Source: Evansella cellulosilytica DSM 2522
GTDB lineage: Bacteria; Bacillota; Bacilli; Bacillales; Salisediminibacteriaceae
DNA: 64,000 nucleotides
Assembly (NCBI RefSeq): GCF_000177235.2
Contig: NC_014829.1
Location: 3,844,001-3,908,000 of the forward strand
Reading direction: 5' to 3'
The notes beneath the pieces are model-generated. The model had not been told where the DNA came from, did not search any database, and saw only the letters and a list, made by a program, of their open reading frames with translations. Below, one piece after another: positions 17,077 to 35,344 of this stretch. How positions within the stretch are numbered: position 1 is the stretch's first letter; every line of letters starts with the position of its first letter. Made by a program: the position numbers and the translations under genes.

Positions 17077-18258
17077 TTATTTTATTTTGTATTCTGAAAT
17101 CACTTTTAAAACACTTGTTATAACATCTTCAACATCCTTTTTAGTCATCGTTGGAAAGATTGGTAGCGTGATTATACCCTCATATATTTCCTCAGTTATT
17201 GGTGTTTTCATACTAGTATACCCTAACTTCCTATAATATGGATGTTTATAGACAGGTATGTAATGGACATGTACACCAATATTTTCTGCTCGCAATGCCT
17301 CAAATATTTCTTTTCTCCCAACAGAAAAACAAGATAAATCTAGTTGTAATATATATAGATGCCAACCGGATTCAGTATGATTAAGTTGTTTAGGTGTGAT
17401 GAGTCCCGGTATTTTCTGAAATCTTGTCGTATACTGCTCAGATATCTTTTTTCGTTTTAGTATAAATTCGTCTATTTTTCTGAGTTGGGACGTGCCTAAA
17501 GCGGCCTGTATATCATTCATGCGATAATTCATCCCGAGTTCTACCATTTCATAAAACCACGGTCCTTCTTTCTCGCTTACTTCTGTTTTCGTTATACCAT
17601 GTGATCTAAATAACCTGAGTTGATTAGCATAAACACTATTATCAGTAACGACTATACCACCTTCACCTGTAGTTACTGGTTTTACAGGGTGGAAACTAAA
17701 CATGGTCATATCAGCTTGTTTCCCAACCTTTCTCCCCTCAAAAGTTGCACCTAGTGAATGTGCCCCATCGCTAATAAAAACTAAATGATGTTTCTTTGCC
17801 AATTTTTGAAATGAATGATAATCTACGGGCTGCCCTGTATAATCAACTGAAACAATCGCTTTTGTGCGTTCTGTAATTTTATCCTCTATTTTCTTTGGAT
17901 CTAAATTATATGTATCTTTATCTATATCGGAAAATACTGGCCTTGCTCCCTGATAAAGCGCAGCATTTACCGTTGCTGCAAAGGTCATTGCAGGCGTAAT
18001 TATTTCATCTCCTTTTGTAACTCCAGCGGCATAATAGGCACCATGTAGTGCAGCTGTACCATTAGCAAAGGCAACTGCATGTTTAGCTCCAACATACTTC
18101 GCAACTGCGTCTTCAAACCTCTCAACAGCAGGCCCTTGTGTTAGAAAAGGACTTTTTAATACTTCAATCACTGCATTAATATCCTCATCATCTATATATT
18201 GTTTTCCATACGACAAAAAGGAGTCTCTTACTGGTTTCCCACCATGTATGGCTAACAT
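17077..18258 (-). CDS. pseC: PseC: UDP-4-amino-4,6-dideoxy-N-acetyl-L-altrosamine transaminase
   Basis: PLP-dependent aminotransferase of the DegT/DnrJ/EryC1 family, second step of pseudaminic acid synthesis (adds the C4 amine to the PseB product). The 393 residues include GKPVRDSFLSYGKQYID at the start, FANGTAALHGAYYAAGV, the SDGAHSLGATFEGRKVG aspartate region and the PLP lysine in FSFHPVKPVTTGEGG. The ORF could start at 18300, but AAGGGTGAT sits just before ATG 18258. It is the last gene of the island and is noticeably less AT-rich than the central genes. Confidence 0.93.
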   Translation of the reverse strand: MLAIHGGKPVRDSFLSYGKQYIDDEDINAVIEVLKSPFLTQGPAVERFEDAVAKYVGAKHAVAFANGTAALHGAYYAAGVTKGDEIITPAMTFAATVNAALYQGARPVFSDIDKDTYNLDPKKIEDKITERTKAIVSVDYTGQPVDYHSFQKLAKKHHLVFISDGAHSLGATFEGRKVGKQADMTMFSFHPVKPVTTGEGGIVVTDNSVYANQLRLFRSHGITKTEVSEKEGPWFYEMVELGMNYRMNDIQAALGTSQLRKIDEFILKRKKISEQYTTRFQKIPGLITPKQLNHTESGWHLYILQLDLSCFSVGRKEIFEALRAENIGVHVHYIPVYKHPYYRKLGYTSMKTPITEEIYEGIITLPIFPTMTKKDVEDVITSVLKVISEYKIK

Positions 18259-18281
18259 AAATATCACCCTTCCATTTAAAG

Positions 18282-18315
18282 ATAACCTCCAATGTTTCAT
18301 TCCATTGGAGGTTAT
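18282..18315. repeat. Intercistronic inverted repeat before pseC
   Basis: ATAACCTCCAATG (18282-18294) and CATTGGAGGTTAT (18303-18315), perfect 13 bp with an 8-nt loop and no T tract. It may protect or separate the pseC message. Confidence 0.7.
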
Positions 18316-18322
18316 GTCATAA

Positions 18323-19273
18323 TTATTGATCTAAATGCCCTTCACTTATCCAATCTTCTGTGCGTTTTATACCTTCCTCAAGCGATACTTTGGGTTTCCA
18401 ACCTAATAGAAGATGTGCTTTCTCATAATTAGAGAGAAGCTTTTGGATTTCACTCTGTGGATGTATATGTTCGACGTGTTTAATGCGATTCTCATCTTCT
18501 ACTATAAGCTTAGCAAGATCGTTTATTGAGATATCCCTACCTAAACCAGCATTTATAACTTCTCCGTTTACTTTCTCAGAGTAACCTGCTTGTACAACAA
18601 AATTTGCACAATCCTCCACGAATAATAAATCACGTGTTTGCGTTCCATCACCATAAATATGAAGCGACTCTCCTTCAAGTTTTTTCTTAATGAAAATAGC
18701 AACGACACCACCTTCACCACCGGTCTTTTGAAAAGGACCATAGGTGTTGAATGGTCGTACGACAACAACAGGAAGGTCATAAGCGAAAAAATAGGACAAC
18801 ACCATATTTTCTGCTGCAATTTTTGCGCCCGCATATGGAGAGGCAGGTTTAGTAGGATGCTGTTCAGTTATTCCTGTTTCATCTAAACAGCGATCGTATA
18901 CCATGCAAGTACTCATAAATACTACTTTCACAAGATGCTTACGGCATTGTTCCATAACATAAAACGTACCCACTGTATCGTTGTTAAACGTTGTTCTTGG
19001 ATCATCAATTGAATCTTGAACATTAATGGAAGCACCTAGATGATAGCAGATGTCAAATGAATATTTGCTAAATAAAGAATCTAGGAGTTGTTCGTCCTTA
19101 ATATCGCCTATTACTACTTCTAACAAATTGCTTTTGTCTTTAAAATCTGCTAGATTTTTCTTTTGTCCGTTGGAAAGGTCATCTAGCACAACAACATTGT
19201 GCCCATCGTGAAGCAGGTGTTTAACAACCCATCTACCGATAAATCCAGCACCACCAGTAACTAAAACGTTCAT
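18323..19273 (-). CDS. NAD-dependent nucleotide-sugar epimerase/dehydratase (extended SDR)
   Basis: A 316-residue extended short-chain dehydrogenase: Rossmann start NVLVTGGAGFIGRWV, DDLSNG adenosine-ribose binding, catalytic Ser/Thr region FMSTCMVYD and YAGAK (YxxxK) motif, RPFNTYGPFQ and GDGTQTRDLLFVED, typical of UDP-glucose 4-epimerase or GDP-mannose dehydratase relatives. The exact substrate cannot be read. It sits between pseI and pseC, and canonical pseudaminic acid synthesis does not need a second SDR, so it may alter a nucleotide sugar used for an additional or modified residue. Confidence 0.85.
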   Translation of the reverse strand: MNVLVTGGAGFIGRWVVKHLLHDGHNVVVLDDLSNGQKKNLADFKDKSNLLEVVIGDIKDEQLLDSLFSKYSFDICYHLGASINVQDSIDDPRTTFNNDTVGTFYVMEQCRKHLVKVVFMSTCMVYDRCLDETGITEQHPTKPASPYAGAKIAAENMVLSYFFAYDLPVVVVRPFNTYGPFQKTGGEGGVVAIFIKKKLEGESLHIYGDGTQTRDLLFVEDCANFVVQAGYSEKVNGEVINAGLGRDISINDLAKLIVEDENRIKHVEHIHPQSEIQKLLSNYEKAHLLLGWKPKVSLEEGIKRTEDWISEGHLDQ

Positions 19274-19293
19274 TACTACACTTCCCTTTATGA

Positions 19294-20358
19294 TTAATTC
19301 CCCTCTTCCATCACAACATCAAACGTAAGAGGATCTCCTTTTTTCACTTCTTTCACTACTTTTTTGCCAATTATTAAATTGATGTACTTTGTTGGCATTC
19401 CTAGTCCTGGTCGAATTGCTCGTACATTCTCCTTCGTAAGTACATCTCCTACTTTGAGATCGCTTGAAACATATAAAGAACGTCTGTGTTTTAACGAAGG
19501 CTCTTCTGATTTTGTAGGACCATATTTAACCGTACCTAAACTAAGCCATGCCTTCTTTGTCTCTTCCACCAATGCCTTCATTTCCTTAGGCTCCATAGAA
19601 AAGGCAGCATCTACTCCACCATCGTCACGGGATAATGTAAAATGCTTCTCGATTACCGTTGCTCCTAAAACAACACTAGCTACCCCAACACCGACGCCCA
19701 TCGTATGATCGGATAGCCCAACTTGAGTCCCAAACAATTCTTTTAAATGTGGCAATGTTCTTAAGTTTGAATTCTCTGGTGAAGCAGGATAAGTGCTTGT
19801 ACATTTTAAGAGAATGAGGTTTTCACAGCCTTCTTCGCGTGCGACTCTAACGGCTTCATCTAATTCTGCAGCAGATGCCATTCCAGTTGACATGATAACT
19901 GGCTTACCAGTACGTGCTACCTTCCGAATCAACGGAATATCCACGTTTTCAAAGGAAGCAATTTTATAGCAAGGTACATCAAGGCTTTCTAAGAAGTCTA
20001 CTGCTGTTTCATCAAACGGAGAACTAAACGCAATAAGTCCTAGTTCTTTACAACGTTGAAATATTCGCTCATGCCACTCCCATGGTGTATACGCTTCTTT
20101 GTATAAGTCATAGAGAGAATTCCCTTTCCATAAACTATTTTCATCATCAATAAAAAACTCGCCTTCTCTAACATCTAGTGTCATCGTTTCTGCTGTGTAT
20201 GTTTGAAGCTTTAACGCATCTACACCCGCGGCTGCAGCTGCCTCCACAATTTCTAACGCTTTGTCTAGTGATTGATTATGGTTCCCAGACATTTCAGCAA
20301 TGATGAATGGGGGCTGGTTGGGACCGATTTTGCGTTCTGCAATGGTGAATTCTTTCAT
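19294..20358 (-). CDS. pseI: PseI: pseudaminic acid synthase
   Basis: Condenses the 2,4-diacylamino-trideoxy altrose with phosphoenolpyruvate to give pseudaminic acid. The 354-residue protein has a NeuB TIM barrel (about 1-270; PPFIIAEMSGNHNQSLDKAL, LKLQTYTAETMT, KCTSTYPASPEN, GLSDHTMGVGV, VIEKHFTL) and a C-terminal antifreeze-like SAF domain (about 290-350; RRSLYVSSDLKVGDVLTKEN). MTLD after TAET and the overall wording favour PseI over the sialic acid or legionaminic acid synthases. Base composition is close to the flanking chromosome rather than to the AT-rich core. Confidence 0.94.
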   Translation of the reverse strand: MKEFTIAERKIGPNQPPFIIAEMSGNHNQSLDKALEIVEAAAAAGVDALKLQTYTAETMTLDVREGEFFIDDENSLWKGNSLYDLYKEAYTPWEWHERIFQRCKELGLIAFSSPFDETAVDFLESLDVPCYKIASFENVDIPLIRKVARTGKPVIMSTGMASAAELDEAVRVAREEGCENLILLKCTSTYPASPENSNLRTLPHLKELFGTQVGLSDHTMGVGVGVASVVLGATVIEKHFTLSRDDGGVDAAFSMEPKEMKALVEETKKAWLSLGTVKYGPTKSEEPSLKHRRSLYVSSDLKVGDVLTKENVRAIRPGLGMPTKYINLIIGKKVVKEVKKGDPLTFDVVMEEGN

Positions 20359-20478
20359 TGAAACACCTCCTCATTAATTATATGTAATGTGTTTGATTTT
20401 GATAAAATGCAGATTCTTACTTATTATCTTTCTCATAGTTAATATTCTTTAAAAAGCTTATACATATTTTCACTTAAA

Positions 20479-21510
20479 TTAATTTCCGATTATTTCTTTT
20501 ACAATAGGATGTTGTAAACAACCGTTATTTCTCACTAATGCCCTAGACCTCTCACTTAATTGCACTAAAGATATCTTGCCTTCCCTTAGATCCTTTAATA
20601 CTTTAATATATGATTTTTCAGTTATATTTTCGTGCCATCCAATATTTATTATTGCACCATGTTCGTGAGTATCTTCTACAGACTTCCTTTGATTTTCTGC
20701 TACTATTGTAACAATCGATGGGAGACCTAGATAACAACGTTCCCACATTGTAATTCCTCCAGCTCCAAATGATACGTCCGCTTCTACCATTAACTTAGTT
20801 ATATAATTAATTTGATAATGAAAAGTAGCGCCAATATCTGTACACATTTTTTTTATAGTACTGATATTTAGATTAGAACTCCCTACAACTACATCGACAG
20901 CTAAGGAAGTAAAATTATGCTGCTTAATAGCTGTTAAAACCTTTTCGGTTTCGTTTGTCTGGTCGCTTCCACCATAAAATATTAGGATCTTACTAACTTG
21001 AGTAGGTTGGTACGTCAATCCTTTTACATTATTAAACTCCTGACGTAATAAGAGATAATTAGGACCTAAGTATTTTTTACAAGTAGATGATACCAAATGA
21101 TTATATCTATTTCTCATGTTCGAATAAAAATTTTGGTCAAGAAGGAGATCACAGTCATGCTTACGATTCGCTAAGTCATCTATTACCATTATTTTATTAA
21201 CAAAAGGTCTTACAATACTCTCATATTTCTCTCCAAGACTATAATGATCAATAACAATCCAAGTGATATCCATTTCTTTTAAATATTGAACAGTTTTATC
21301 TGCGTCCTCTAGTTCATTTAAAATGTTTGGTAATTCTAATACTTTAAAACCATTATCCTTAATTATACCAATGAGATTACCTCTAATGTTTTTACAAATA
21401 AAACATACTTCTACTCTTTCTTCTTTTAACATCTCTGCCAATACTAAGCATCGCATTACATGACCCGAACCTATGTTAATTGAAGCATCCACACGAATTA
21501 TAACATTCAA
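20479..21510 (-). CDS. pseG: PseG: UDP-2,4-diacetamido-trideoxy-altropyranose hydrolase
   Basis: Removes UDP before the PseI step. The protein (343 residues from the chosen start) has a GT-B-like fold with the PseG start IIRVDASINIGSGHVMRCLVLA, WIVIDHYSLGEKYE (the DHY segment with the catalytic His), ILIFYGGSDQTNET and SFGAGGITMWERCYLGLP. In-frame ATGs at 21519 and 21516 lie 0 and 3 nt from GAAGGA; TTG 21510 gives 9 nt spacing and the family-like start MNVIIRVDAS, so I prefer TTG. No acetyltransferase (PseH) domain is fused to it, although such fusions exist elsewhere. Confidence 0.9.
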   Translation of the reverse strand: MNVIIRVDASINIGSGHVMRCLVLAEMLKEERVEVCFICKNIRGNLIGIIKDNGFKVLELPNILNELEDADKTVQYLKEMDITWIVIDHYSLGEKYESIVRPFVNKIMVIDDLANRKHDCDLLLDQNFYSNMRNRYNHLVSSTCKKYLGPNYLLLRQEFNNVKGLTYQPTQVSKILIFYGGSDQTNETEKVLTAIKQHNFTSLAVDVVVGSSNLNISTIKKMCTDIGATFHYQINYITKLMVEADVSFGAGGITMWERCYLGLPSIVTIVAENQRKSVEDTHEHGAIINIGWHENITEKSYIKVLKDLREGKISLVQLSERSRALVRNNGCLQHPIVKEIIGN

Positions 21511-21562
21511 AACCATCATTCCTTCAAATCTCAAAATAAGTAAATATTGAAAAAATAGTAAA

Positions 21563-22288
21563 TCACTTCACAGGTTTCTGTACAATATGAGAATTAATAT
21601 TTGCTACTTCAGGATTATTTACTAGAAAATTTACAACTTGGTTAGATGATACAAGCTTATCATTATTAAAGTGTTGTGCTATCATTTTACATAGTTCATA
21701 ATCTTCTACTGTATCAAGGGTGATACGGAGTTCCGGATTACACAATGAGTCTGGCGCAAAATACTTTTTAACAGAGAATTTATCTTCATTTTCATATCCG
21801 TAGTATGTAACATGTTCACGATGTCTTTCTTCTTTGCCATTTTTATAGATATACTCCAATGCATTAAACGCAAACATTTCAACTACTAACCCTCTGGGCA
21901 AATCCCCCTCTACCTTCACAAAGTCACATGGATTATTTATCATTTTTTTTATTATATTTTCTGCCATTTCAATGTCTACAAATGGACAATCAGATGTCAC
22001 CCTTATTATATAATCTGATTGATATAATTTGGCGCATTTATAGTAACGATCTAAAACATCTAATTCAGACCCTCTAAAACAATTAACTCTATTCCTTTGA
22101 CACCATTTCTCAATATCCGCGTCTTGTTTTGAAATGGTAGTAGCTACAATGACTTCATCTACCCCTTTAATACGTTTACACCTAGATACTACATAGTCAA
22201 GGACAATAGAGTTTCCAAGAGGCTTTAACACCTTACCTGGTAATCTACTTGACCCCATTCTAGCTTGGATGATAATATTTACTTTCAC
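21563..22288 (-). CDS. Pseudaminic acid cytidylyltransferase (PseF/SpsF type)
   Basis: Activates the nonulosonic acid as CMP-sugar for transfer. The 241 residues start with the nucleotidyltransferase signature NIIIQARMGSSRLPGKVLKPLG and contain IIRVTSDCPFVDIEM for metal binding, characteristic of the SpsF/CMP-NeuA-like family. Three nt separate it from the upstream ATP-grasp gene and it is followed by pseG. Substrate is inferred from the pathway neighbours; pseF and spsF are both used as names for such genes, so I leave the symbol blank. Confidence 0.88.
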   Translation of the reverse strand: MKVNIIIQARMGSSRLPGKVLKPLGNSIVLDYVVSRCKRIKGVDEVIVATTISKQDADIEKWCQRNRVNCFRGSELDVLDRYYKCAKLYQSDYIIRVTSDCPFVDIEMAENIIKKMINNPCDFVKVEGDLPRGLVVEMFAFNALEYIYKNGKEERHREHVTYYGYENEDKFSVKKYFAPDSLCNPELRITLDTVEDYELCKMIAQHFNNDKLVSSNQVVNFLVNNPEVANINSHIVQKPVK

Positions 22289-22291
22289 TAT

Positions 22292-23251
22292 TTAATCCTC
22301 CTTCATATCAATAACTAAATCATTGGGATAACGAATCAGTTTCAATTCTTTACTAGTTCGAACAAAAGGAGAATCACATATGCCTATCCCTTTGGCCTCC
22401 AATAAAAACCAATATAAGCTATCTAACCCAGCAGCAATACTTAATGGAGAAGCCCCGCCAAAACGACAATTGATTTCCAAAATATTTAGGTTATTATTGT
22501 CATCTAAAATGACTTGAAATACTACATGCCCATATAATCCTAATTCTTCAGCAAAGTTGCAACAAACTTTTTCTATCATATCGTTCTTTACAGTTGTCGT
22601 AATTTGTGATTCACCATTTATAACAGTGTCTCTACTTCTTACAATTGCTCCTTTAGCTTTAATTTCATTATTAATATAAATATCTATACTATACTCTTTA
22701 CCAACTATATAAGGCTGAAATATTGGCCCCCTTAACTTGTTTGCATGAATTCTTGCCTCATCCATATTTAAGTTAGTACCTATATTTTCAGAACCTGCCC
22801 CAAATTTCTCTTTCACTACAAAGTAACTAAAAGCTTTTATATCGACGATGTTTTCTGTAGTAGGAATAACGGGGTAATTTTTGTTTGTACTGTATTTGTA
22901 AAATTCAAGTTTATCTATGCATTTTTTAATTGGTTCCTTATCTGAAACCATGACAAAAATATCATGCTCTTTTAGCGAATCTTTCCACTCAGAGAAAATT
23001 AAAAGTTCTGCATCTCTTGTAGGAATAATAGCAAATATATTATTAGAGCGACAATAGCTTATTAATGTTTCAAGTTTTAATTGACTTAAGGGTGGCATTA
23101 GCCAAAATTGATCAACAAAATATTTGCCAATTACATTTAATTGACTATCAGCTCCAAAAATTTGGCACTTAGCATTGATTTTTTTTCCAGCCTTTTTAAT
23201 AGCTTTAAGAAGGGGTACTTTTTTGGAAATACTCGTTACTAATATGTTCAT
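22292..23251 (-). CDS. ATP-grasp family ligase
   Basis: A 319-residue ATP-grasp protein of the carbamoyl-phosphate-synthase-like type. The N-terminal part (NILVTSISKKVPLLKAIKKAG) is a pre-ATP-grasp Rossmann domain; the grasp core has FVVKEKFGAGSENIG, FQPYIVGKEYSIDI and the metal-binding LNILEINCRFGGASPLS. Such enzymes ligate a carboxylate to an amine or thiol through an acyl phosphate. It overlaps the HAD gene by 4 nt (ATGA) and is followed by the cytidylyltransferase. The substrate is unknown; an amino-acyl or other acyl modification of the amino sugar is one possibility. Confidence 0.85.
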   Translation of the reverse strand: MNILVTSISKKVPLLKAIKKAGKKINAKCQIFGADSQLNVIGKYFVDQFWLMPPLSQLKLETLISYCRSNNIFAIIPTRDAELLIFSEWKDSLKEHDIFVMVSDKEPIKKCIDKLEFYKYSTNKNYPVIPTTENIVDIKAFSYFVVKEKFGAGSENIGTNLNMDEARIHANKLRGPIFQPYIVGKEYSIDIYINNEIKAKGAIVRSRDTVINGESQITTTVKNDMIEKVCCNFAEELGLYGHVVFQVILDDNNNLNILEINCRFGGASPLSIAAGLDSLYWFLLEAKGIGICDSPFVRTSKELKLIRYPNDLVIDMKED

Positions 23252-23931
23252 TCTCCCCCACCAAAATCTTTCCTTAATTCTAATAAAGAATATATTTTTT
23301 TATCTGCTTCATAGTGTTTGTCCAATGAGATTTTCATATGATCCCCTACTGGTCTGATTATTCGTATCGTCTTCATGCCTAATCTTTTTGCAGTAACAAA
23401 ATCTTTATGGGGATTATCACCAATATAAATACATTCGTTTAATGACGTGTTTAATACTTTTGATACTTCCTTATAGGGGATATCACTAGGTTTCCAACAA
23501 CTACTTCCTAAGTCATCTGAAACAATAATAGAACTAACTAATTCATTTAAGCCCAATGCTTCAATTTTTCGCCATTGCATTATTGAGTTACCATCTGTAA
23601 TTATTCCTATAGGTATATTTTGCCTCTTCAAAAAAGATATCAAACTTTTTGCATCATTATATAAATCAATCAAAGGTCTGTGGTTTCTATAGACATTGAT
23701 AAGTTTATCAATACTCACATCAATATTATATCTTTGACAAACGGCATTAAAAACTCTTCCCCTTCCACTTATCATCCATTCTTTAATAAAACTGTTATAA
23801 AGAGTCTCTTGATTTAGGTTAGGAAATTTGCCAACAACATATTTTGCAACGGCATTAAACCCTGAACGAACATATTCGTGTTCACAAAATAATGTATCAT
23901 CTAAGTCAAAGATTGGAATGTTTTTTTCCAT
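23248..23931 (-). CDS. HAD-family hydrolase (probable sugar or polyol phosphatase)
   Basis: A 227-residue haloacid-dehalogenase-type phosphatase: motif I FDLDDTLF (nucleophile and acid Asp), motif II IITDG, motif III lysine in SSCWKPSD, motif IV YIGDNPHKDF. A helical cap lies between motifs I and II. It is the first gene after an internal terminator and a sigma-D-like -10, so it may head the second half of the island. Physiological substrate not readable; a phosphorylated sugar or alcohol intermediate of the island is likely. Confidence 0.85.
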   Translation of the reverse strand: MEKNIPIFDLDDTLFCEHEYVRSGFNAVAKYVVGKFPNLNQETLYNSFIKEWMISGRGRVFNAVCQRYNIDVSIDKLINVYRNHRPLIDLYNDAKSLISFLKRQNIPIGIITDGNSIMQWRKIEALGLNELVSSIIVSDDLGSSCWKPSDIPYKEVSKVLNTSLNECIYIGDNPHKDFVTAKRLGMKTIRIIRPVGDHMKISLDKHYEADKKIYSLLELRKDFGGGE

Positions 23932-23958
23932 TTATAATATTCCTTCCTATTTAATTTA

Positions 23959-23966
23959 ATATCGGA
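23959..23966 (-). promoter_or_regulatory. Sigma-D-like -10 before the HAD gene
   Basis: Minus strand TCCGATAT (23966-23959), the same -10 form as hag, 28 nt before the HAD start and just after a terminator. There is no TAAA at the right distance (CTTT instead), so activity is uncertain. Confidence 0.4.
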
Positions 23967-23972
23967 CTAAAC

Positions 23973-24008
23973 AATAAAAATAAAGAGCCTGTTTGAACTT
24001 ACAAGCTC
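23973..24008 (-). terminator. Internal terminator of the modification island
   Basis: GAGCTTGT (24008-24001) pairs with ACAGGCTC (23992-23985), 8 bp with one G-U, then TTTATTTTTATTG. It begins 12 nt after the CDP-alcohol transferase stop and splits the island into two probable units. Confidence 0.7.
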
Positions 24009-24020
24009 CTTCTAATTATA

Positions 24021-24719
24021 TCAAGTCTCTGTATGCTTAACTTGATACAAGTACTTAGACTTTAAACACTCCCAAACGCGGTATAACCAATCGAGATTCT
24101 TCCCTACAATCACTATAAAAACTAACATCTCTAAATTATTTATGATTGCAAATAGTGATATTAAGAAATATATTAAGAAGATATCAAAAGCAGGTATAAT
24201 ACCCCTAGAAAAAAACCACTGTTTCCATTTTGAACGTACTATCGTATATTTCCTCATAAATGGTAAAACGAATTTATGTACAACAATAACATCGATATAT
24301 ATTGTTGCTACAAATAATACTTTAGCCCACATTGGTACATCAACAACAAAAGTAATAGATACAAATAATACAAGTCGTACTATTTGATCTACCCACTGAT
24401 CTAATTTCGCCCCAAAATCCGAACAACGATTCGTTAGTCTAGCTAGGTTACCATCAGCGCCATCCATTAAGTGATGTAGCTGAAGTAAAATTGCTCCAAG
24501 AATCCATTGTTCGAATATAAAGGAAAGTCCTGCACCAATACCAAACAGCCCAGCAATAACAGTTACCATGTTTGGTGTTAATCTCATATCATAGACCAGT
24601 TTTGTAAAAAAGGGGTCTATAAGATGTGCGTAATATTTATTAAAAAGATACTCTTGAGGGCGTCTTTGTTGGACAACATATTTCTGACGAAAAGAACGAA
24701 ATTTACATATAAGGCTCAT
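24021..24719 (-). CDS. CDP-alcohol phosphatidyltransferase family membrane enzyme
   Basis: Integral membrane enzyme of 232 residues that transfers a phospho-alcohol from a CDP-linked donor to a second alcohol. The full family signature DG-x2-AR-x8-G-x3-D-x3-D is present at residues 89-111 (DGNLAR ... G ... D ... D), followed by four to five hydrophobic segments. GAGGTG 7 nt upstream sets ATG 24719, which shares one base with the previous stop (TAATG). Its place among CDP-glycerol-type enzymes suggests a lipid- or carrier-linked phosphodiester intermediate. Phospholipid housekeeping roles (pgsA, pssA) are less likely in this context. Confidence 0.88.
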   Translation of the reverse strand: MSLICKFRSFRQKYVVQQRRPQEYLFNKYYAHLIDPFFTKLVYDMRLTPNMVTVIAGLFGIGAGLSFIFEQWILGAILLQLHHLMDGADGNLARLTNRCSDFGAKLDQWVDQIVRLVLFVSITFVVDVPMWAKVLFVATIYIDVIVVHKFVLPFMRKYTIVRSKWKQWFFSRGIIPAFDIFLIYFLISLFAIINNLEMLVFIVIVGKNLDWLYRVWECLKSKYLYQVKHTET

Positions 24720-26131: not shown

Positions 26132-26164
26132 AATATATTTCCCTTCCTAAAGAGGAGTTTTCTA

Positions 26165-27514: not shown

Positions 27515-27606
27515 TCCTTCACAACCTTTATATAACAAATGTTTTTCTAATGTGTATTGTTTGTACCGCTCAATAGGATGAAAATTTGATACCGATTTGT
27601 GTAAGT

Positions 27607-28857
27607 CTACAATTTATAGGTAATGTTAATATCTACCAGATACCTCCATAGCCTTTCTGATGAGTAACCATCTTGATATTCAAAAAGATTATCTAATAAA
27701 ACCTTTCTCTCATCAATGTAATTATCACCCTTATAAAATAAATTATGAAGTTCCTCCTCTAATTCAATCTGCGTACTACATTTTTTACCTGGCGTTATTT
27801 CACCATAATTAAAATGAATTCTATCCTCTTTTTGATTATAATATTCATAGTCATAGTTATAAAAAATAACAGGTTTATTCATTAAAATAAAATCTGTGTA
27901 TATAGAAGAGTAATCAGTTATTAAAACATCTATTAATGAGAATAATGGATAAAGATCTAAATTTTTTTGGTATTCAATAATATTTTCGTATCTACAATTT
28001 ATTATCGATTTACTCTTTGGATGTTGTTTTAAAATAAAAATAAATTCATTTTTCATGCAGAAATTAGATAGTCTATTATAGTCAACTGCTTCAGTTTCCA
28101 ATTTAATAGTATCAGCATTATTCCTCCATGTAGGTGTATAGAGTATTATTTTTTTCCCAAGCTTCTTAAAATACTCGACTTTATTTAATACAGACGCATC
28201 TACACCTAACATGACATTACTTGAAACTTTTTTATTAAAGAATATATCATTTCTAGGTTGACCATTTATAAAAATGTTCTTATATCTAAACATATTTGCT
28301 TTTTCTTTAATTTGAAGTTCAGAGCTAAGGACAAGCAAGTCATAAAAAGGGGACTTAATTATGATTTTACTATAAATATTAGTGAGCATTCTTTTCTTGT
28401 ATTCCTGCATAATGGGGTTTGAATTTCCTACTTTCTTCATTCCAACCCCATGCCATAACTGTATTTTGTAACTTCTATATAATAAGTGTGGCTTGAAATT
28501 TCCTAACCATTCATTACTATCTACAATTACAACGCCTGCTCTTAATAACTTCCAAATTGATGATATTTTTGGATAAAATATAACTGGTAAATTATTATCA
28601 TTTAATGTATTAAATGTTGCAGCGTCTTCACATAAATAATATATATTCATCCTTTGATCTTTATCTATATTATTGTACAAATATAGATATAAGTATTTAA
28701 CATTATCAGCAAACCTATTGTTCATTCTAGGGATAAAAACTATTTGTTTTTTGTTTTTTGGTATAATTATTGATAAAGGGATGCAAATACACCACCCAAC
28801 TATAAATCTATATAAGATTCCCTTAAATATAAACTTTATTGGGTGCTTGATTTTCAT
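27607..28857 (-). CDS. CDP-glycerol glycerophosphotransferase family enzyme (TagF-like)
   Basis: A 416-residue enzyme with a short N-terminal hydrophobic segment (about 10-35) that may hold it at the membrane, then the TagF-type catalytic region: IQLWHGVGMKKVG (His-Gly near the active site), FINGQPRND, ILYTPTWRNN, FILKQHPKSK and DVLITDYSSIYTDFILMNKPVIFY. It transfers a polyol phosphate from a CDP donor. ATG 28857 overlaps the preceding stop as ATGA; the TTG start at 28866 is not needed. With the 24719-26131 enzyme it makes a pair, as in primer-plus-polymerase arrangements of wall teichoic acid. Confidence 0.88.
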   Translation of the reverse strand: MKIKHPIKFIFKGILYRFIVGWCICIPLSIIIPKNKKQIVFIPRMNNRFADNVKYLYLYLYNNIDKDQRMNIYYLCEDAATFNTLNDNNLPVIFYPKISSIWKLLRAGVVIVDSNEWLGNFKPHLLYRSYKIQLWHGVGMKKVGNSNPIMQEYKKRMLTNIYSKIIIKSPFYDLLVLSSELQIKEKANMFRYKNIFINGQPRNDIFFNKKVSSNVMLGVDASVLNKVEYFKKLGKKIILYTPTWRNNADTIKLETEAVDYNRLSNFCMKNEFIFILKQHPKSKSIINCRYENIIEYQKNLDLYPLFSLIDVLITDYSSIYTDFILMNKPVIFYNYDYEYYNQKEDRIHFNYGEITPGKKCSTQIELEEELHNLFYKGDNYIDERKVLLDNLFEYQDGYSSERLWRYLVDINITYKL

Positions 28858-29585
28858 ATATTCCAACCTACTTTCAGATTTTCATAATCTTCAACTGTAT
28901 CAATTTCATACCACGAATCTATATCAACATTAATTGAATAAACTTTTTTCCCACTCTCATTTAGTCGGTTTATCAATTCATGCCATATTTTTCCAAACTT
29001 ATGTTCTTCTTTTATTATTTGACCTAGTTCATCAACAAAATCTCTTCTATTATTTTTCCCTTTTATAATTAGTACTCCCGCAGAGGCTGCATCACAAAGA
29101 GATTCATCTAATGTTTTGGATACTTGAATAACTAATCCATTTTCTATATTAACTTTTACATCATCTGAAGCGTAGCTTCTTTTTGTACTACTGAGTAAAT
29201 ATATCCCTTCTTTTTCGCACTTTGATTTTATTTCTGAAAATATATTCTTGTTATAAACCGTATCACCATTAATAATGATACTATCATCACAACTGATCAA
29301 AGAATTGGCTGTCCAAATGGATAATAATGGTCCTACATCAGAAAATTTGGGATTATAGAGCGTTTTTACTCCATTGTACTTTTCTATCCTAGAATCTATT
29401 GAATCAGCATGATAACCTGTTATAACTGAAATAGTCTGAATAAAGTCAAAATTTCTTGCACCTTTAATATTATTCTCTAATATTGTAGTAGTATTATTGT
29501 TTATTTTTAAGAGAGGTTTAGGTATATCTCTAGTAATATTTCCTAGTCTTTTACCTCTACCAGCTGCAAGTATTATCAGATTCAA
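28854..29585 (-). CDS. Nucleotidyltransferase (LicC-like or sugar-phosphate type)
   Basis: A 243-residue nucleotidyltransferase: LIILAAGRGKRLGNITRDIPKPLL signature split across the N-terminus, YNPKFSDVGPLLSIWTA and the metal-binding IIINGDTVYN. The order and wording recall LicC-type CTP:phosphocholine cytidylyltransferases as well as hexose-phosphate NTases. ATG 29600 has no ribosome site; TTG 29585 is preceded by GGTGAGG at good spacing and gives the usual start MNLIILAAG, so I chose it. Overlaps the TagF-like gene by 4 nt. It probably supplies a second CDP- or NDP-activated donor for the island. Confidence 0.85.
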   Translation of the reverse strand: MNLIILAAGRGKRLGNITRDIPKPLLKINNNTTTILENNIKGARNFDFIQTISVITGYHADSIDSRIEKYNGVKTLYNPKFSDVGPLLSIWTANSLISCDDSIIINGDTVYNKNIFSEIKSKCEKEGIYLLSSTKRSYASDDVKVNIENGLVIQVSKTLDESLCDAASAGVLIIKGKNNRRDFVDELGQIIKEEHKFGKIWHELINRLNESGKKVYSINVDIDSWYEIDTVEDYENLKVGWNI

Positions 29586-29645
29586 AAATCCCTCACCCAT
29601 TTCAAAGATTTAATAAATATTTAAATTGTATTAAAATATACTGAT

Positions 29646-30833
29646 TTATCGAGAGAAAACAAAGCTATCTATCCCTTTTTTAGTGGCAAATAAATTACAT
29701 TTAGTGTCTAATGTTTCACATTCCTGTAAAGGTATTAGGTCTCCTTCTTTTGAGAAAGTATATACAGAATAATCGTAACTATTTATTAACGAAACGAGGT
29801 TATTTGAATCTAACCCCATTTGGTTTAAGTTGTGATGATTAACTTCAAATAAAATATCTGGAGCTTTTGCTTTAGATAACAAGTTACTAGCACCCTTGAA
29901 TGCGTTATATTCCCCACCATCAATATCACACTTTATTAAATCTACACTACTTAAACCTAATGACCTGATAATATTATCTAATGAGTCTACTTGTACAATT
30001 TCAAACTTATTTAATTCATTTAAAGATTTTATTAATGATTTTTGGCCCCAATTTTCTTCTGAATTATTATATAATTTTAGTGTTCCCTTTTCAGTTCCAA
30101 CTGCATTATTCATTACTATTACATTTTTAACATCATTTAAAACTAGGTTTTTTTGTAATAATTTTATATTATCAGTAGACGCCTCGATTGAATAAACTGT
30201 CCCCTTTTCTCTTAGAGTTTTTGATAATAATAAAGTGTAATACCCTACGTTTGAACCAATATCAAAAACAATTTTACTATTTTTATAATTATTTATTATA
30301 AAATTACTCTCCATAATTTCATAATAACCATTATTAAATATTTTTCTTTGTAGATCATCCCGAAGGTACAAATTTATTTGAAATGAACAATCCTTAATTG
30401 CTATTTCCCTTGAAATTGGAGTCTTGGGAATATCATTAATATTAAGTATGACTTCTTTATTAACAACCCAATAAAAACATTTATTTTCTGTTTTATCGTA
30501 TAATTTTACTGCCTTGTTTAATAAATTCAACTCGTTTAATTTATTTATAATTTCTTCTTGATAATGAAACGAAGATACTATAATTTTATCAACATTTTGA
30601 GTTATTTCGCTCAATTTTTCAGGAGGGTAGCACTTAATATTTTTTATTTTCGTTATTTCAGTATTCTTATCAATAATTCCTATAATATTGTCTATACACA
30701 CATGATTTTTTTCTAATAATCTCAGTAATGTAATTGTATGTTCACCTCCCCCATATAGCATTATTTTAGAATGAACCAAATCTTTAAAGATATCAATTAT
30801 TACTTTCTGTGTATAGTTTCTACTTTTTTTCAT
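29646..30833 (-). CDS. FkbM-family methyltransferase with N-terminal Rossmann-like module
   Basis: A 395-residue protein. Residues about 175-390 form an FkbM-type SAM-dependent O-methyltransferase: KIVFDIGSNVGYYTLLLSK (SAM-binding), VYSIEAS, VDLIKCDIDGGEYNAFKGA and ILFEVNHHNL. Residues about 15-130 carry a GGGEHTITLLRLL module followed by IIGIIDKN, much like the C-terminal module of the TagB-like enzyme in the same operon. GAGG sits 6 nt before ATG 30833. This is the most AT-rich gene of the window by eye. It likely methylates the glycan. Confidence 0.85.
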   Translation of the reverse strand: MKKSRNYTQKVIIDIFKDLVHSKIMLYGGGEHTITLLRLLEKNHVCIDNIIGIIDKNTEITKIKNIKCYPPEKLSEITQNVDKIIVSSFHYQEEIINKLNELNLLNKAVKLYDKTENKCFYWVVNKEVILNINDIPKTPISREIAIKDCSFQINLYLRDDLQRKIFNNGYYEIMESNFIINNYKNSKIVFDIGSNVGYYTLLLSKTLREKGTVYSIEASTDNIKLLQKNLVLNDVKNVIVMNNAVGTEKGTLKLYNNSEENWGQKSLIKSLNELNKFEIVQVDSLDNIIRSLGLSSVDLIKCDIDGGEYNAFKGASNLLSKAKAPDILFEVNHHNLNQMGLDSNNLVSLINSYDYSVYTFSKEGDLIPLQECETLDTKCNLFATKKGIDSFVFSR

Positions 30834-30851
30834 ATAGCACCTCATAATAAA

Positions 30852-33674
30852 TTACATTATAATTAACATTTTTATCCTTGCTCCCGCACTATCTCTAGCT
30901 TCATAGTTTGGTGTAACACCTTTAAACGCTATATTATTACATTGTTCATAGTTCATCCCTCTATAGACAACACCCTTATTTTGAAGTGTTTCAGTCCAGA
31001 AATAACTCCCAGGTAATAAGTTCCAATCAGATTTCGGTATTTTATTTAATTCCAGCATCTCCGAATTAACGATATAATAATCCCATTCAGAACTTTCCAA
31101 CAAATTTATTTGTATAGTCTCTTTTATTTGATCAGATTTTTTATATCTGTTTAGTTGGTTTGTCAAGTCGATACTCCAACTAATATTTTTTTGCACATTT
31201 CTATCTGATATTAATTTCAATTTTTCACCGTCTTTATCAACCATGATTAAATAGAAATCACCGTTTGGATAATCATTAGATTGAGAAGATATAAATAATT
31301 TAGTCTCCTTTCCTAGACCACTAAATACACCTGGTTTATTAAAATTAGCTTTATAATGGCACCTAATTCTTTTCCCTATTTCTAAATCTCTGATTTCCGT
31401 AACTTCTTCAATATGAAAAACTCTAGCGTTGGCTTCAATTTCAATACCGTTAAACACAAAATGGTTATCATCTAGTAATTCTATAGTAATAAAATGCATC
31501 TTCTCTTCTAGGTTTCTTACTTCTAGAATTGGAAAATCAGGTTCAAAAATAAATTCAGTACTTTCATTACTTTTTGATGATACGATATATTCCTCATTAT
31601 CTATCGTTACTTTTACTTTAGATGTGAAGTCATTACGAGTACCTGCGAATATCTTTATAGATGATCCACTAAATTTAAAGGAAATCGCTTCCGCATTTTT
31701 TCTCGTATTGTAGTAGATTTTAGAATCTACTCTATTGATATCATTGGAATATCTATGTGTGCTCCATCCTCTTGTATATTTAAATACCCCACAGTCTGAA
31801 GAGTAATATTTCCCTTTTAATGTTCTAAGTTTAGAATGGGTATTTAATTTCATTTCAGGAAGCAACTCGTTGTATATTTTTTTACAGATTATCAAATAAC
31901 CACCGAATTCCTTAGTAATAATTCTAGACCGCGTTGTTATGTCATCAATAGTTTGAAGTTTCTTAACTTCAAATTGTAGCTTTTCATAATCAATTCTAGA
32001 TATCGGTAAAATTATAAATTGGAAAAAATTATTATTCATTAATTTTTTCATACTTTTATCAAGTTTACTTAATAAATTTTCGAGCTTATTTATAGAATAA
32101 TTTTCAGTTGCATTTGATATTTCTTCTATTATCCTACGGACTTTTTCATAAAGACCCTTAAAACTAGTTTCTTCTCTTTCCATCTTACTTATTTTATGAA
32201 GCGTTTTTTCTATAGGATGAGAATCTTTTAATGTATACCAATTCCTTTTTACAACTTTAATATCCAAGTATTTCTCTATAACTTCATTTAAATATAGAAA
32301 ATTTGCACCTTCAATATTAGCCCCATTCTTAGTTGTGTTAATAACTTGAACATTATCATATATTCTTATTTTTTCTTCTAAATTTAATCGCATCTGATTT
32401 AATGACATATTTGTCTTTATATCTTTTCCATTAACGTCTTTTACTGTTAACACCTTTGTTAGGTCTTTTTCTTTTATTTCTGCATTTCCACTTTTCCCTC
32501 TACGAATTTCCTTTGAATAATAAAGGTTATCTTTAAAGGCTAAATTTTGGCCAACTAGAATAATAGGGTCTGCCTTCAGCTTAGCAAAAATTTCAAATGT
32601 GACAGTCGCAATTGAAAATGCATCATCAACTAGTTCTATTGGTCTATCACCATAATCAATATAATAAGGAGAGACAGTATCTTGTGTAGTAACAAAATGA
32701 AGTTTTGGCCCCTTATACTTTTCAACTGTTTCATAACCAACGCTAGTTCCATAGATCATTGGAACAGTATCAATATTCTTTTCTAGCATTGGCATAAATA
32801 CTCGGTAGTTATGTTTTTGTGGATCATAAGTACTAACCGCATCAGGTAAGATATCACTGGCTATCAATGCTTTATTTGCTGAACCTACTGCAATAATATA
32901 TGCTGTTCCATTTTTCTTAATTTCCCTAAGGTTTTCTAGCTCCTCATGTAAAGAAGGACCTGCCGAGACGATAATTACCGGTTTACCATAAAAAACTTCT
33001 TTCTTATCCATAAGGATGTTTGGAGATTTTATCGTTTCAGGTAAATTGATTAAGCTATTTAATGTCCATCTTTTTGAAAAATGAAGATCGGCAGTTAGTG
33101 ACATGCCTCTTTGTTGAATTTTTTCCTTATATAGTTTCGTGAACTCTTCAATTTGTTCAGAAAAAGCTCTAGTATAGGATGGTAATATAACAAGTAAAAC
33201 TTTACTATCATAATCATGTACTAATTCATTAATAAGTTGTTCCCAATAAATTGGGTCAAAATCCAGACATATATTATTGACCTTACTTAAAATAGTTGTA
33301 TCAACTTTTCTTGTACATAGTAACTGATAAAATATTGCTGGAGATGGTTCATATATGGTGTACTTTTTATCAGGGTATTGATTTATGAACTCCTCAATGT
33401 GATAACCCAGTCCACAACCTAAGAAGACAATATGATTGTACTGATCTATTCCATTCCTATATTGATCCACTACCTTTTGAGCTTCTTTCAAAGGATTGTA
33501 TTTACTATGAATTGAAAGTGGACGCCCATTAATATCTACTTCTAATGTTTTATCACCTGTCTTTGAATCCCCAATCTTCAATGGTTCTTCTGACAAAAAA
33601 TTTTCATTTTTTACAATTAAATCTAATAGTAATTTATGATTATTTTTCAACTCTTTTTGATTACTTTTTATCAT
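30852..33674 (-). CDS. maf: Maf flagellin nonulosonic acid transferase (motility accessory factor) with long C-terminal extension
   Basis: Maf proteins attach pseudaminic or legionaminic acid to Ser/Thr of flagellin in the cytoplasm. The MAF_flag10/DUF115 core is at about 190-440: VIIVSAGPSLHEELENLRE, YIIAVGSANKALI, PDAVSTYDPQ, PIILVGQNLAF. An N-terminal domain (about 50-190; VFLGCGLGYHIEEF) precedes it and a helical domain follows (about 470-620). At 940 residues it is about 300 longer than the usual 600-650; the extra part (about 650-940) is beta-rich and carbohydrate-binding-like (FSGSSIKIFAG) and then resembles a domain I recall from Bacillus/Paenibacillus phage tail proteins (DFYLIMVDKDG, ISDRNVQKNISW). 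Located beside pseB and downstream of hag. Confidence 0.9.
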   Translation of the reverse strand: MIKSNQKELKNNHKLLLDLIVKNENFLSEEPLKIGDSKTGDKTLEVDINGRPLSIHSKYNPLKEAQKVVDQYRNGIDQYNHIVFLGCGLGYHIEEFINQYPDKKYTIYEPSPAIFYQLLCTRKVDTTILSKVNNICLDFDPIYWEQLINELVHDYDSKVLLVILPSYTRAFSEQIEEFTKLYKEKIQQRGMSLTADLHFSKRWTLNSLINLPETIKSPNILMDKKEVFYGKPVIIVSAGPSLHEELENLREIKKNGTAYIIAVGSANKALIASDILPDAVSTYDPQKHNYRVFMPMLEKNIDTVPMIYGTSVGYETVEKYKGPKLHFVTTQDTVSPYYIDYGDRPIELVDDAFSIATVTFEIFAKLKADPIILVGQNLAFKDNLYYSKEIRRGKSGNAEIKEKDLTKVLTVKDVNGKDIKTNMSLNQMRLNLEEKIRIYDNVQVINTTKNGANIEGANFLYLNEVIEKYLDIKVVKRNWYTLKDSHPIEKTLHKISKMEREETSFKGLYEKVRRIIEEISNATENYSINKLENLLSKLDKSMKKLMNNNFFQFIILPISRIDYEKLQFEVKKLQTIDDITTRSRIITKEFGGYLIICKKIYNELLPEMKLNTHSKLRTLKGKYYSSDCGVFKYTRGWSTHRYSNDINRVDSKIYYNTRKNAEAISFKFSGSSIKIFAGTRNDFTSKVKVTIDNEEYIVSSKSNESTEFIFEPDFPILEVRNLEEKMHFITIELLDDNHFVFNGIEIEANARVFHIEEVTEIRDLEIGKRIRCHYKANFNKPGVFSGLGKETKLFISSQSNDYPNGDFYLIMVDKDGEKLKLISDRNVQKNISWSIDLTNQLNRYKKSDQIKETIQINLLESSEWDYYIVNSEMLELNKIPKSDWNLLPGSYFWTETLQNKGVVYRGMNYEQCNNIAFKGVTPNYEARDSAGARIKMLIIM

Positions 33675-33700
33675 GGGATTCCTCCTGAATCACATTCCCT

Positions 33701-34717
33701 TTAATACAATAAATTCTCATTACATATCCAATCTCTAAGTTGTCTCTTAGTAATGACATCTTCTATTCTTGGTTTGTCCATTACAGAACAATGATCTATT
33801 TCAAGTTGACCTTTGTATTTTCGACCTTTGCCTCCGAATGGTGGTGGTAGGATATACATTTCTTTTGTTTCTATGGAAATTCTATATTCATCTTCTGTCA
33901 TTAATTCTTCATATCGTTTTTCACCTGGACGTAGGCCAATAGTATCGATTAATATTTCCTCATTAATAAAACATTTATCTTTCATTTCCTCTATGATTAC
34001 TTCCACTAAGTCCTGCATTTTTATAATTGGCATTTTTAATACAAATACCTCTCCTCCAAGTGCAATAGAATTTGCTTTTAAAATTAGTTGTATTGCTTGA
34101 TTAGGAGTCATCATATAACGAAGCATATTGGCATTAGTTAAAGTAATTCTCTTATCGTTCAATATTTGTTTTTTAAATAGTGGAATAACAGAGCCCCTAG
34201 ATCCCATAACATTTCCAAAACGAACAGATGAGAAGATTGTCTTGTTTGGTCCTTTTTGATATTCAGCGGCAGATATTAAACGTTCTGCAGTTAATTTAGT
34301 AGCTCCATACGTATTTGTTGGTGAAATTGCTTTATCAGTACTTGTAAATAATACTCGTTTCACCTTATTTTGAACAGCTGCTTGAATAACATTTTGTGTT
34401 CCTAATACATTAGTTTGAACTGCTTCGAATGGATTGTATTCACAAGCTGGAACATGCTTCATTGCTGCTAAGTGAAATACATAATCAATATCTTCCATAG
34501 CACGTGATAATCGTCTTTCATCACGTACATCACCTATTAAATAGCGAATATTATCATGAGCTAAATAATCTTGGTGCAGTTCAAATTGCTTATGTTCATC
34601 ACGACTAAAAATTCGAATTACTTTTGGACTATGTTGCAATAATTCTTTAAGTAAATGTTGGCCAATTGTACCAGTGCCACCAATAATTAAAATACTTTTA
34701 TTTCTATATAATGACAT
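33701..34717 (-). CDS. pseB: PseB: UDP-N-acetylglucosamine 4,6-dehydratase (inverting)
   Basis: First enzyme of pseudaminic acid synthesis, an NADP-dependent SDR that dehydrates and C5-epimerises UDP-GlcNAc. The 338-residue protein has SILIIGGTGTIGQHL at the N-terminus, HLAAMKHVPACEYNP (the PseB/FlaA1-type catalytic segment), STDKAISPTNTYGATK with the YxxxK pair, and the C-terminal LRPGEKRYEELMTEDE. It follows the 202-residue unknown gene and precedes maf, separated from PseC by 15 kb, so the pathway genes bracket the CDP-alcohol block. Confidence 0.95.
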   Translation of the reverse strand: MSLYRNKSILIIGGTGTIGQHLLKELLQHSPKVIRIFSRDEHKQFELHQDYLAHDNIRYLIGDVRDERRLSRAMEDIDYVFHLAAMKHVPACEYNPFEAVQTNVLGTQNVIQAAVQNKVKRVLFTSTDKAISPTNTYGATKLTAERLISAAEYQKGPNKTIFSSVRFGNVMGSRGSVIPLFKKQILNDKRITLTNANMLRYMMTPNQAIQLILKANSIALGGEVFVLKMPIIKMQDLVEVIIEEMKDKCFINEEILIDTIGLRPGEKRYEELMTEDEYRISIETKEMYILPPPFGGKGRKYKGQLEIDHCSVMDKPRIEDVITKRQLRDWICNENLLY

Positions 34718-34735
34718 ACAAACGTTCCCTACCTT

Positions 34736-35344
34736 TTATAGTAAGTTTTCCCTTATACCTACACTATCTATTGTCATACTTATACGAACTTTAAGTTTTT
34801 CTAGCATATCCATGATTTCATATTGGATAATATCAGCTATTAATACGTAGTCTTTATGTTCTAATGCATCTGATATATGATTAAGTTCTTCATCAACACT
34901 TGAGACTATTTGTAAATATTCATTCCAATTTCTTATATTATGCTTTAGACGGTCTACCGATACGATCATATGAGTAATCCATTGAAGTCCTTCAAGTAAT
35001 TGATCATATTTTTTCCACGTTAAATCCGTTGGTGTGTTATAAAATTCTTCAGCTAATAATTTAATTTCTGGCACTGCTGAGTTTATATATTTTTCTGTCG
35101 ACAGTAGAATATCATTTGTTAATTCACTGACAGATTTACAAATAACCCGAATTTCAGAAATCCCATTAATATTTTCTAAAAGATAACTATCATGATTCTC
35201 ATAAACCTCTTTACCATCTACTATCAAGTGGCTAAAATAGTTATCTCCTTCTTCGACTTTTTTATTAATTTTTAAGATTATATTATTAATTTCATTAATA
35301 TTATTTTTATACTCAAAGATTTCTTCTTCGATAATTAAAAACAT
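34736..35344 (-). CDS. Unknown 202-residue protein, first gene of the modification island
   Basis: Acidic, mainly helical soluble protein (EIFEYKNNINEINNIILKINKKVEEGD; DEELNHISDALEHKDYVLIADIIQYEIMDMLEKLKV). No catalytic motif is recognisable and I do not know the family. It is the promoter-proximal gene behind a sigma-D promoter that closely resembles the hag promoter, and lies between hag and pseB, so it may be an adaptor between flagellin and the Maf machinery. That role is inference. A GGAGGG ribosome site precedes ATG 35344. Confidence 0.8.
   Translation of the reverse strand: MFLIIEEEIFEYKNNINEINNIILKINKKVEEGDNYFSHLIVDGKEVYENHDSYLLENINGISEIRVICKSVSELTNDILLSTEKYINSAVPEIKLLAEEFYNTPTDLTWKKYDQLLEGLQWITHMIVSVDRLKHNIRNWNEYLQIVSSVDEELNHISDALEHKDYVLIADIIQYEIMDMLEKLKVRISMTIDSVGIRENLL

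Follow-up and report, generated by a model that had tools for sequence, protein, structure and literature searches.

In the Type A flagellin of C. difficile a methylated threonine is attached through a phosphodiester bond, with CDP-threonine proposed as the donor and a TagF-like protein as the transferase (PMC10714395), and the b-type flagellin of P. aeruginosa also carries a phosphodiester-linked methylated threonine for which a CDP-threonine donor has been proposed (PMC11833859). In the Enterobacterales, the TagD, TagB and LtaS genes of the Flag-2 system were proposed in 2020 to make a teichoic-type flagellin glycan (PMC6993521), and in G. thermoglucosidans DSM 2542 a tagD and pgs pair, located in a pseudaminic island free of PseH, was reported in 2016 and read as a lipid modification (PMC5109656). 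Here we describe a flagellin island in 64,000 nucleotides of Evansella cellulosilytica DSM 2522 (contig NC_014829.1, positions 3,844,001 to 3,908,000; hereafter the window), in which genes for nonulosonate synthesis are joined to genes for teichoic-type CDP-alcohol chemistry. It is moderately probable, judging from its genes, that this island builds and attaches to flagellin a pseudaminic-type nonulosonate glycan carrying one or more alcohols linked by phosphodiester bonds. We favour this flagellar phosphodiester because the genome holds no other PF04464 or TagD gene, because islands with TagD and PF04464 genes stand at the same site in two further genomes, and because the relatives of one of its enzymes cluster in flagellar loci.

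The island occupies positions 17077-35344 of the window and consists of sixteen open reading frames (ORFs), all on the minus strand between hag and flaG/fliD, with neighbours spaced -13 to 120 bases apart. A preliminary description of the same DNA had counted sixteen genes here, and both the count and its domain assignments were borne out; the island is real and functionally coherent, and what had been inferred from it was reasonable. The genes, in the order read from Pfam and NCBIfam, are orf202, a PseB-like gene, a Maf-like (MptE-like) gene, FkbM, a LicC-like gene, a first PF04464 gene (Glyphos1), a fusion of TagD with a Gfo/Idh/MocA dehydrogenase (TagD-MocA), a second and divergent PF04464 gene (Glyphos2), a CDP-alcohol phosphatidyltransferase, HAD, ATP-grasp and cytidylyltransferase genes, PseG, PseI, a GalE/RmlB-like short-chain dehydrogenase/reductase (SDR) and PseC. 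The flagellin and the central enzymes are:

35477..36445, minus strand, hag flagellin, 322 aa, presumed acceptor (Flagellin_N/C)
29646..30845, minus strand, FkbM methyltransferase with an N-terminal extension (Pfam/NCBIfam)
28854..29600, minus strand, LicC-like nucleotidyltransferase (closest solved relative the CTP:phosphocholine cytidylyltransferase 1jyk, E 4e-10)
27607..28866, minus strand, Glyphos1, PF04464 transferase of full length in which the WHG and QHP motifs are present (211.1 bits; aligned to TarL and TagF)
26165..27514, minus strand, TagD-MocA fusion, cytidylyltransferase plus Gfo/Idh/MocA dehydrogenase, with K221 and Y304 present (Pfam, NCBIfam, alignment)
24719..26131, minus strand, Glyphos2, divergent PF04464 protein belonging to the flagellar clade and ending in a Rex/NeuD-like nucleotide-binding stretch (Pfam/NCBIfam, profile, tree)
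24021..24725, minus strand, CDP-alcohol phosphotransferase with a DG-DG-AR-G-D-D motif seen by eye (PF01066, 60.4 bits; 4o6m, E 6.5e-12)

As with the Type A locus of C. difficile (CD0240-CD0244), whose glycan contains a phosphodiester, the block lies beside the flagellin gene and includes a nucleotidyltransferase and TagF-like, phosphatase-like and methyltransferase proteins (PMC10714395). A feature of Type A, a TagF-like transferase and a LicC-like nucleotidyltransferase beside flagellin, is present here. Unlike the island, Type A has N-acetylglucosamine (GlcNAc) as its core sugar, and its five-gene set is described without pse genes, TagD-MocA or a CDP-alcohol transferase and with CDP-threonine as the proposed donor. 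An alternative is that the group added by the LicC-like, Glyphos and FkbM proteins is, as in C. difficile, a phospho-amino acid such as methylated threonine, and not a polyol. The LicC-like, TagF-like, phosphatase-type and methyltransferase genes beside hag are the enzyme kinds of CD0241-CD0244 (PMC10714395), and the ATP-grasp protein could handle an amino acid. However, nothing in CD0241-CD0244, which were compared by enzyme description only, corresponds to the TagD-MocA fusion or the CDP-alcohol transferase, and a Maf protein stands in place of the GlcNAc transferase; we consider this alternative unlikely.

The b-type locus of P. aeruginosa PAO1 (PA1088-PA1091) also provides a phosphodiester-linked group, and PA1091, which is reported to join a glycosyltransferase to a CD0244 homolog, resembles by its described arrangement the glycosyltransferase-Glyphos2 fusions of genomes G111 and G041 and of E. 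coli Flag-2 (PMC11833859). Its core, in contrast, is a deoxyhexose bearing N,N-dimethylthreonine, and its four-gene block is described without nonulosonate genes. Variable region 1 of the Enterobacterales Flag-2 (TagB, LtaS, TagD) resembles the island in having TagD and PF04464-type genes in a flagellar locus (PMC6993521), and the Glyphos2 clade is common to both, whereas Flag-2 is a second flagellar system of Gram-negative bacteria, its TagD is single-domain and no pse gene was annotated in the two loci viewed. The Geobacillus Type II-IV flagellin islands carry pse genes without PseH, FkbM in some of them, and, in DSM 2542, the tagD and pgs pair that was read as lipid modification; the sections of their description that were consulted name no PF04464, ATP-grasp or HAD gene (PMC5109656). 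We set the lipid interpretation aside, given that PF04464 transferases accompany TagD in the window and in genomes G271 and G343. With phosphodiesters described in C. difficile and P. aeruginosa and a teichoic-type proposal made for Flag-2, phosphodiester decoration of flagellin is already known, and the initial claim of an undescribed type of modification falls. In a search of open-licence papers, most of them judged from their listing, we found no flagellin island joining pseudaminic synthesis to PF04464 enzymes, nor a dehydrogenase-cytidylyltransferase fusion in this role, ATP-grasp and HAD genes without PseH, or a PF04464 clade spanning phyla. A further parallel is the sps operon of B. subtilis, in which spsB lies beside pse-like genes.

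The E. cellulosilytica genome, a single contig, contains exactly two PF04464 genes, both inside the island, and one TagD domain of the TIGR01518 type, that of the island fusion, which scores under the equivalog cut-off. No TagB/TagF-type PF04464 gene was found in a wall locus of this genome (TagO, TagA and TagGH were not searched for), and none of the 16 island genes is annotated by Pfam or NCBIfam as a wall-polymer exporter or wall-attachment enzyme. PF04464 genes vary among relatives, being present in 13 of 18 other genomes searched. Because the only PF04464 and TIGR01518-type genes of the genome lie in a flagellar island, a role for the central enzymes in wall teichoic acid appears unlikely, and a capsule or wall polymer was set aside for want of either gene type outside it. 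A variant of this idea is that the product of the central genes is a teichoic-like polymer, either secreted or bound to the wall, and that only co-transcription places them in the flagellar operon: Glyphos1 resembles TarL and TagF, the TagD resembles wall enzymes, and 72 of the 77 loci with TagD-MocA relatives lie outside flagellar loci. Against it stand the genome-wide counts, the lack of exporter or attachment annotations and the recurrence of the same gene mix at the hag-orf202-pseB-maf site; moreover, relatives of both families, TagD and PF04464, occur in the Flag-2 locus of E. coli, which to our knowledge makes no wall teichoic acid. We regard co-transcription as a distinctly improbable explanation.

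Comparable islands were found at the hag-orf202-pseB-maf site in two other genomes, G343 and G271. The islands compared were 35 obtained from orf202 matches (the ten weakest left out) plus that of G343, 36 altogether, in stretches of about 20 kb or less, so that further genes would be missed. In G343, which belongs to another family, the order is hag-orf202-pseB-maf-..-Glyphos1-TagD-Glyphos2-ATPgrasp-HAD-cytT-pseG-pseI-pseC with glycosyltransferases between, and in G271 it is hag-orf202-pseB-maf-..-TagD-Glyphos1-..-CDPOHPT-HAD-ATPgrasp-cytT-pseG-pseI-SDR-pseC, nearly that of the window. The TagDs of G343 and G271 (198.1 and 183.5) pass the TIGR01518 cut-off of 165.4, and CDP-glycerol is therefore the likely donor there. 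A CDP-alcohol transferase is present in G087 and weak TagD and PF04464 matches in G061, and the other 32 of the 36 islands gave no TagD, PF04464 or CDP-alcohol transferase match, one of them (G081) having a 28-bit LicC match. The TagD/PF04464 island is a minority variant.

Relatives of Glyphos2 occur in 12 other genomes among the 397 of the order. Six of them, the closest by E value (E <= 4e-29), are in flagellin (hag-fliD) loci; the remaining six, with E values of 2.5e-15 to 9.2e-11, belong to TagD/PF04464 clusters in which no flagellin was matched over about 9 kb around them. In a tree of 38 PF04464 rows, nine Glyphos2 rows form a clade with 100/100 support, all from flagellar loci and two of them E. 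coli Flag-2 proteins; the rows came from hand-chosen loci, partly by Glyphos2 similarity, and the clade holds for this sampling. The clade does not include the other flagellar PF04464 rows, which are Glyphos1 of the window and the rows from G271, G343 and G061. In E. coli Flag-2 the Glyphos2 domain is fused to a glycosyltransferase, and a TagD-like gene lies beside fliJ (L247 8591-14333; L248 6585-12289); of 5426 E. coli genomes, 1265 have the fused gene and, counted separately, 1262 have the TagD-like one. In G111 a fusion of a family 2 glycosyltransferase (GT2), a tetratricopeptide repeat (TPR) stretch and Glyphos2 follows hag immediately, and a homolog occupies the same place in G041. A phmmer search with Glyphos2 alone returned no solved relative at E <= 1, and a seven-row profile did match one. 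By eye, a PglD_N/Rex-like nucleotide-binding stretch (F/Y-G-x-G..., ...VDN) was seen to recur as a terminal segment in many unlike island proteins, including the C-terminus of Glyphos2 and the N-terminus of FkbM in the window and proteins of loci L212, L219, L220, L223 and L228.

The TagD-MocA fusion bears on the identity of the alcohol, for which glycerol phosphate (+154 Da) had been suggested as an example. The HxGH and RTxG(I/V)S motifs of TagD are present in the window fusion, and among the fusion rows both His, the Arg, the Thr and the Ser are invariant (79/79) and the Gly is kept in 73/79. The fusion scores 109.9 in one scan and 112.8 in another against the cut-off of 165.4 of TIGR01518, the TagD equivalog, and differs from TagD at three aligned positions, R63 being G in 78/79 rows, W74 being E in the window and D93 being S in 79/79; we take these positions to bear on the TagD substrate. 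Because of this score and these three positions the alcohol may not be glycerol, and the +154 Da increment is not supported. The idea of a phosphodiester-linked alcohol on the flagellar glycan is still the best reading, and has gained support from the genome-wide PF04464 and TagD counts, the islands of G271 and G343 and the Glyphos2 loci. In the MocA half, the lysine of the EKP motif, presumably catalytic, is kept in 29/79 rows, including the window, and is T, I or V in 50/79. Rows with the lysine had an SDR neighbour within 1.5 kb once and none in 26 cases, and those without it had one in 44 cases and none in 5, which fits the MocA half being an alcohol-forming reductase, replaced by the SDR in most Bacteroidota rows.

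At least 264 places in the genome collection matched TagD-MocA; the best 80, which were kept, come from Bacteroidota, Bacillota, Actinomycetota and one Methanobrevibacter bin, and the fusion ORF was called in 77 loci. With purpose-built, iterated profiles, LicD or PF04464 was found within 1.5 kb of TagD-MocA in 45 of these 77 loci and within 5 kb in 55. When other genes of these loci were drawn instead, 300 times and at 1.5 kb, the count averaged 14.7 and never exceeded 27. Pfam confirmed LicD in five loci, four of which hold flagellar genes too (L021, L022, L034 and L086). The fusion is widespread and often lies beside LicD or PF04464 genes.

Several observations weigh against a flagellar phosphodiester. 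A strong TagD and PF04464 occur together in only 2 of the 36 other islands (G343 and G271), a rare combination. TagD-MocA is mostly found outside flagellar loci, with a flagellar gene in 5/77; one of these five loci, L019, has no LicD or PF04464 in the available stretch, and neither lies within 5 kb in 22/77. The split between lysine and SDR largely tracks lineage, its rows not being independent. In Glyphos2, inspected by eye, the WHG motif typical of TagF-like enzymes is missing, so that it could transfer a sugar, and in L168-L172 no TagD, LicC, LicD or CDP-alcohol transferase was matched near its relative. Taken further, both Glyphos1 and Glyphos2 would be GT-B glycosyltransferases for nucleotide sugars and the glycan would contain no phosphodiester. 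Besides the absent WHG motif, the relatives in L168 and L169 also match a UDP-GlcNAc 2-epimerase model, under its cut-off, and no CDP-alcohol gene was matched near the Glyphos2 fusions of G111 (to GT2 and TPR) and G041 (to a homologous stretch). This explanation, however, does not account for an operon that also encodes TagD, LicC and the CDP-alcohol transferase, and Glyphos1 retains both histidine motifs of TagF/TarL (WHG and QHP), which we take to be catalytic; we find it the hardest of the alternatives to credit.

The nonulosonate genes and their neighbours are:

33701..34717, minus strand, PseB-like UDP-GlcNAc 4,6-dehydratase (TIGR03589, 329.1 bits, cut-off 407.75)
30852..33674, minus strand, Maf/PseD-like flagellin nonulosonyltransferase (PF01973, 125.9 bits, cut-off 34.6; PF20157, 27.4 bits, cut-off 23.5)
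23248..23931, minus strand, HAD phosphatase-like protein (Pfam)
22292..23251, minus strand, ATP-grasp ligase-like protein (Pfam/NCBIfam)
21563..22288, minus strand, cytidylyltransferase, candidate CMP-nonulosonate synthetase (PF02348, 113.4 bits)
20479..21534, minus strand, PseG (TIGR03590, 298.2 bits, cut-off 153.55)
19294..20358, minus strand, PseI (TIGR03586, 505 bits, cut-off 340.25)
18323..19273, minus strand, GalE/RmlB-like SDR (Pfam/NCBIfam; more than 500 bits in five other islands)
17077..18300, minus strand, PseC (TIGR03588, 488.9 bits, cut-off 423.5)

The ends of the island had been assigned to the pseudaminic pathway. This stands for PseC, PseG and PseI, which all pass the equivalog cut-offs of the canonical CMP-pseudaminic pathway, and not for the other steps. 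The PseB-like protein misses its equivalog cut-off, that of the PseH-type island L213 scoring 542.3; the cytidylyltransferase, though a member of the CTP_transf_3 family, reaches 18.8 against 205.7 for PseF (L213 also misses, with 36.8); and no PseH was found in the island, the 14 genome-wide matches all being under the cut-off (best 54.5 against 93.1). Maf has both the MptE-like and the Maf N-terminal domain and does not reach the PseD model NF050051 (87.6 against a cut-off of 670).

Of the 17 islands whose PseI is strong, 7 have an ATP-grasp gene, 7 others a PseH-like GNAT, 3 neither and none both (Fisher p 0.0098 if two weak GNATs are taken as PseH, 0.044 without them; the islands share ancestry and are not independent). 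The PseH profile was made from five island GNATs with a 40-bit limit, just under which one of the islands with neither gene, L232, has an ORF (38.4 bits), and the row of the window was set from its Pfam/NCBIfam genes; four GNATs pass the PseH cut-off and two miss it, that of L227 not being among those scanned. The slot that HAD and ATP-grasp occupy in the window and in G271, between the CDP-alcohol transferase and the cytidylyltransferase, is filled in G087 by two genes, one GNAT and one GNAT/FemAB-like (under the FemAB cut-off). We infer that ATP-grasp and HAD would supply a different N-acyl group in place of PseH. In C. difficile Type B flagellin, a peptidylamido sugar is reported to require an ATP-grasp gene (PMC5207246).

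The LicC-like enzyme has two weak matches in the 396 other genomes of the order (E <= 1e-12), and no flagellin match was found in the 20 kb around either relative (L173, L174). In G407, from the same genus, the hag-fliD site (L144 1029-5423) holds ATPgrasp_ST, LicD, a 2-aminoethylphosphonate-aminotransferase-like gene (under cut-off) and a LicC-like gene, possibly another phosphoester cassette at the same place. The first gene of the island and the promoter candidates are:

36567..36593, minus strand, sigma-D-like promoter of hag (pattern match)
35384..35410, minus strand, sigma-D-like promoter before orf202, putative island promoter (pattern match)
34736..35344, minus strand, orf202, 202 aa, unannotated (no Pfam/NCBIfam family above cut-off)
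17014..17041, minus strand, sigma-D-like site before flaG, marking the island end (pattern match)

Members of the orf202 family were matched in 47 of the 397 genomes of the order, its own included. In the 36 islands, maf is one of the next two genes in 33 and hag one of the previous two in 29, and orf202 is possibly a partner of Maf or flagellin; its single-sequence structure prediction was poor (mean pLDDT 61.9, pTM 0.48). The pattern TAAA-N14..17-CCGATAW occurs four times in the window, the fourth at 42874, against 0.51 expected, and 1 of 100 shuffles reached as many. Sites flank the island, before orf202 and before flaG. The site before orf202 was found in 5 of the 36 other islands and in 5 of 720 random stretches from the same loci, which is suggestive of a recurring feature, although most islands lack the strict pattern. 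That one hag-like sigma-D promoter drives all sixteen genes, as first described, agrees with this site and is plausible, no more, because hairpins lie between hag and the orf202 site (35461-35430, with a T run) and inside the block (a weaker one at 24011-23982, between the CDP-alcohol transferase and HAD genes), and the hairpin scan total of 5 was not above the 6.3 expected. GC content is 0.26-0.33 from orf202 to pseG compared with 0.36-0.41 for pseI, SDR, pseC, flaG, fliD and hag, as would be expected if most of the block had been gained horizontally. The genome has a second flagellin gene at another place (1944209-1944622, L017), and of 19 window proteins only hag matched in the surrounding 20 kb.

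What can be read directly is gene content, motifs, recurrence and the absence of other PF04464 and TagD genes; each reaction, its order and its product are deduced from these. The PseB-like protein, PseC, PseG, PseI and the cytidylyltransferase would make a CMP-nonulosonate, HAD would remove a phosphate, and the 4-amino group would probably be acylated by the ATP-grasp ligase, a step proposed because no PseH is encoded. Before Hag is exported, Maf would attach the nonulosonate to it. In the fusion, the MocA half would produce an alcohol phosphate by reducing a phosphorylated precursor, a ketone or an aldehyde, and the TagD half would activate this product with CTP. A second CDP-alcohol may come from the LicC-like enzyme and be methylated by FkbM. 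Transfer of the alcohol phosphate from its CDP carrier to the glycan would then fall to Glyphos1, Glyphos2 and/or the CDP-alcohol transferase in the membrane.

A wider proposal, tentative and on balance doubtful, combines a PseH-free nonulosonate pathway in flagellar islands of the Bacillota (ATP-grasp and HAD, a non-acetyl acyl group), a non-glycerol CDP-polyol supplied by the fusion, and a PF04464 clade that is specific to flagella and also found in E. coli Flag-2. If it is true, teichoic-type phosphodiesters, assembled in the cytoplasm ahead of export, would be present on the flagella of many bacteria. The island offers a compact and testable set of enzymes, namely a dehydrogenase-cytidylyltransferase fusion, a PF04464 clade associated with flagella and a candidate substitute for PseH. 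A relative of one island enzyme is encoded in 23% of complete E. coli genomes, and teichoic-type phosphodiester chemistry would, if our interpretation is true, be a general decoration of flagella across phyla.

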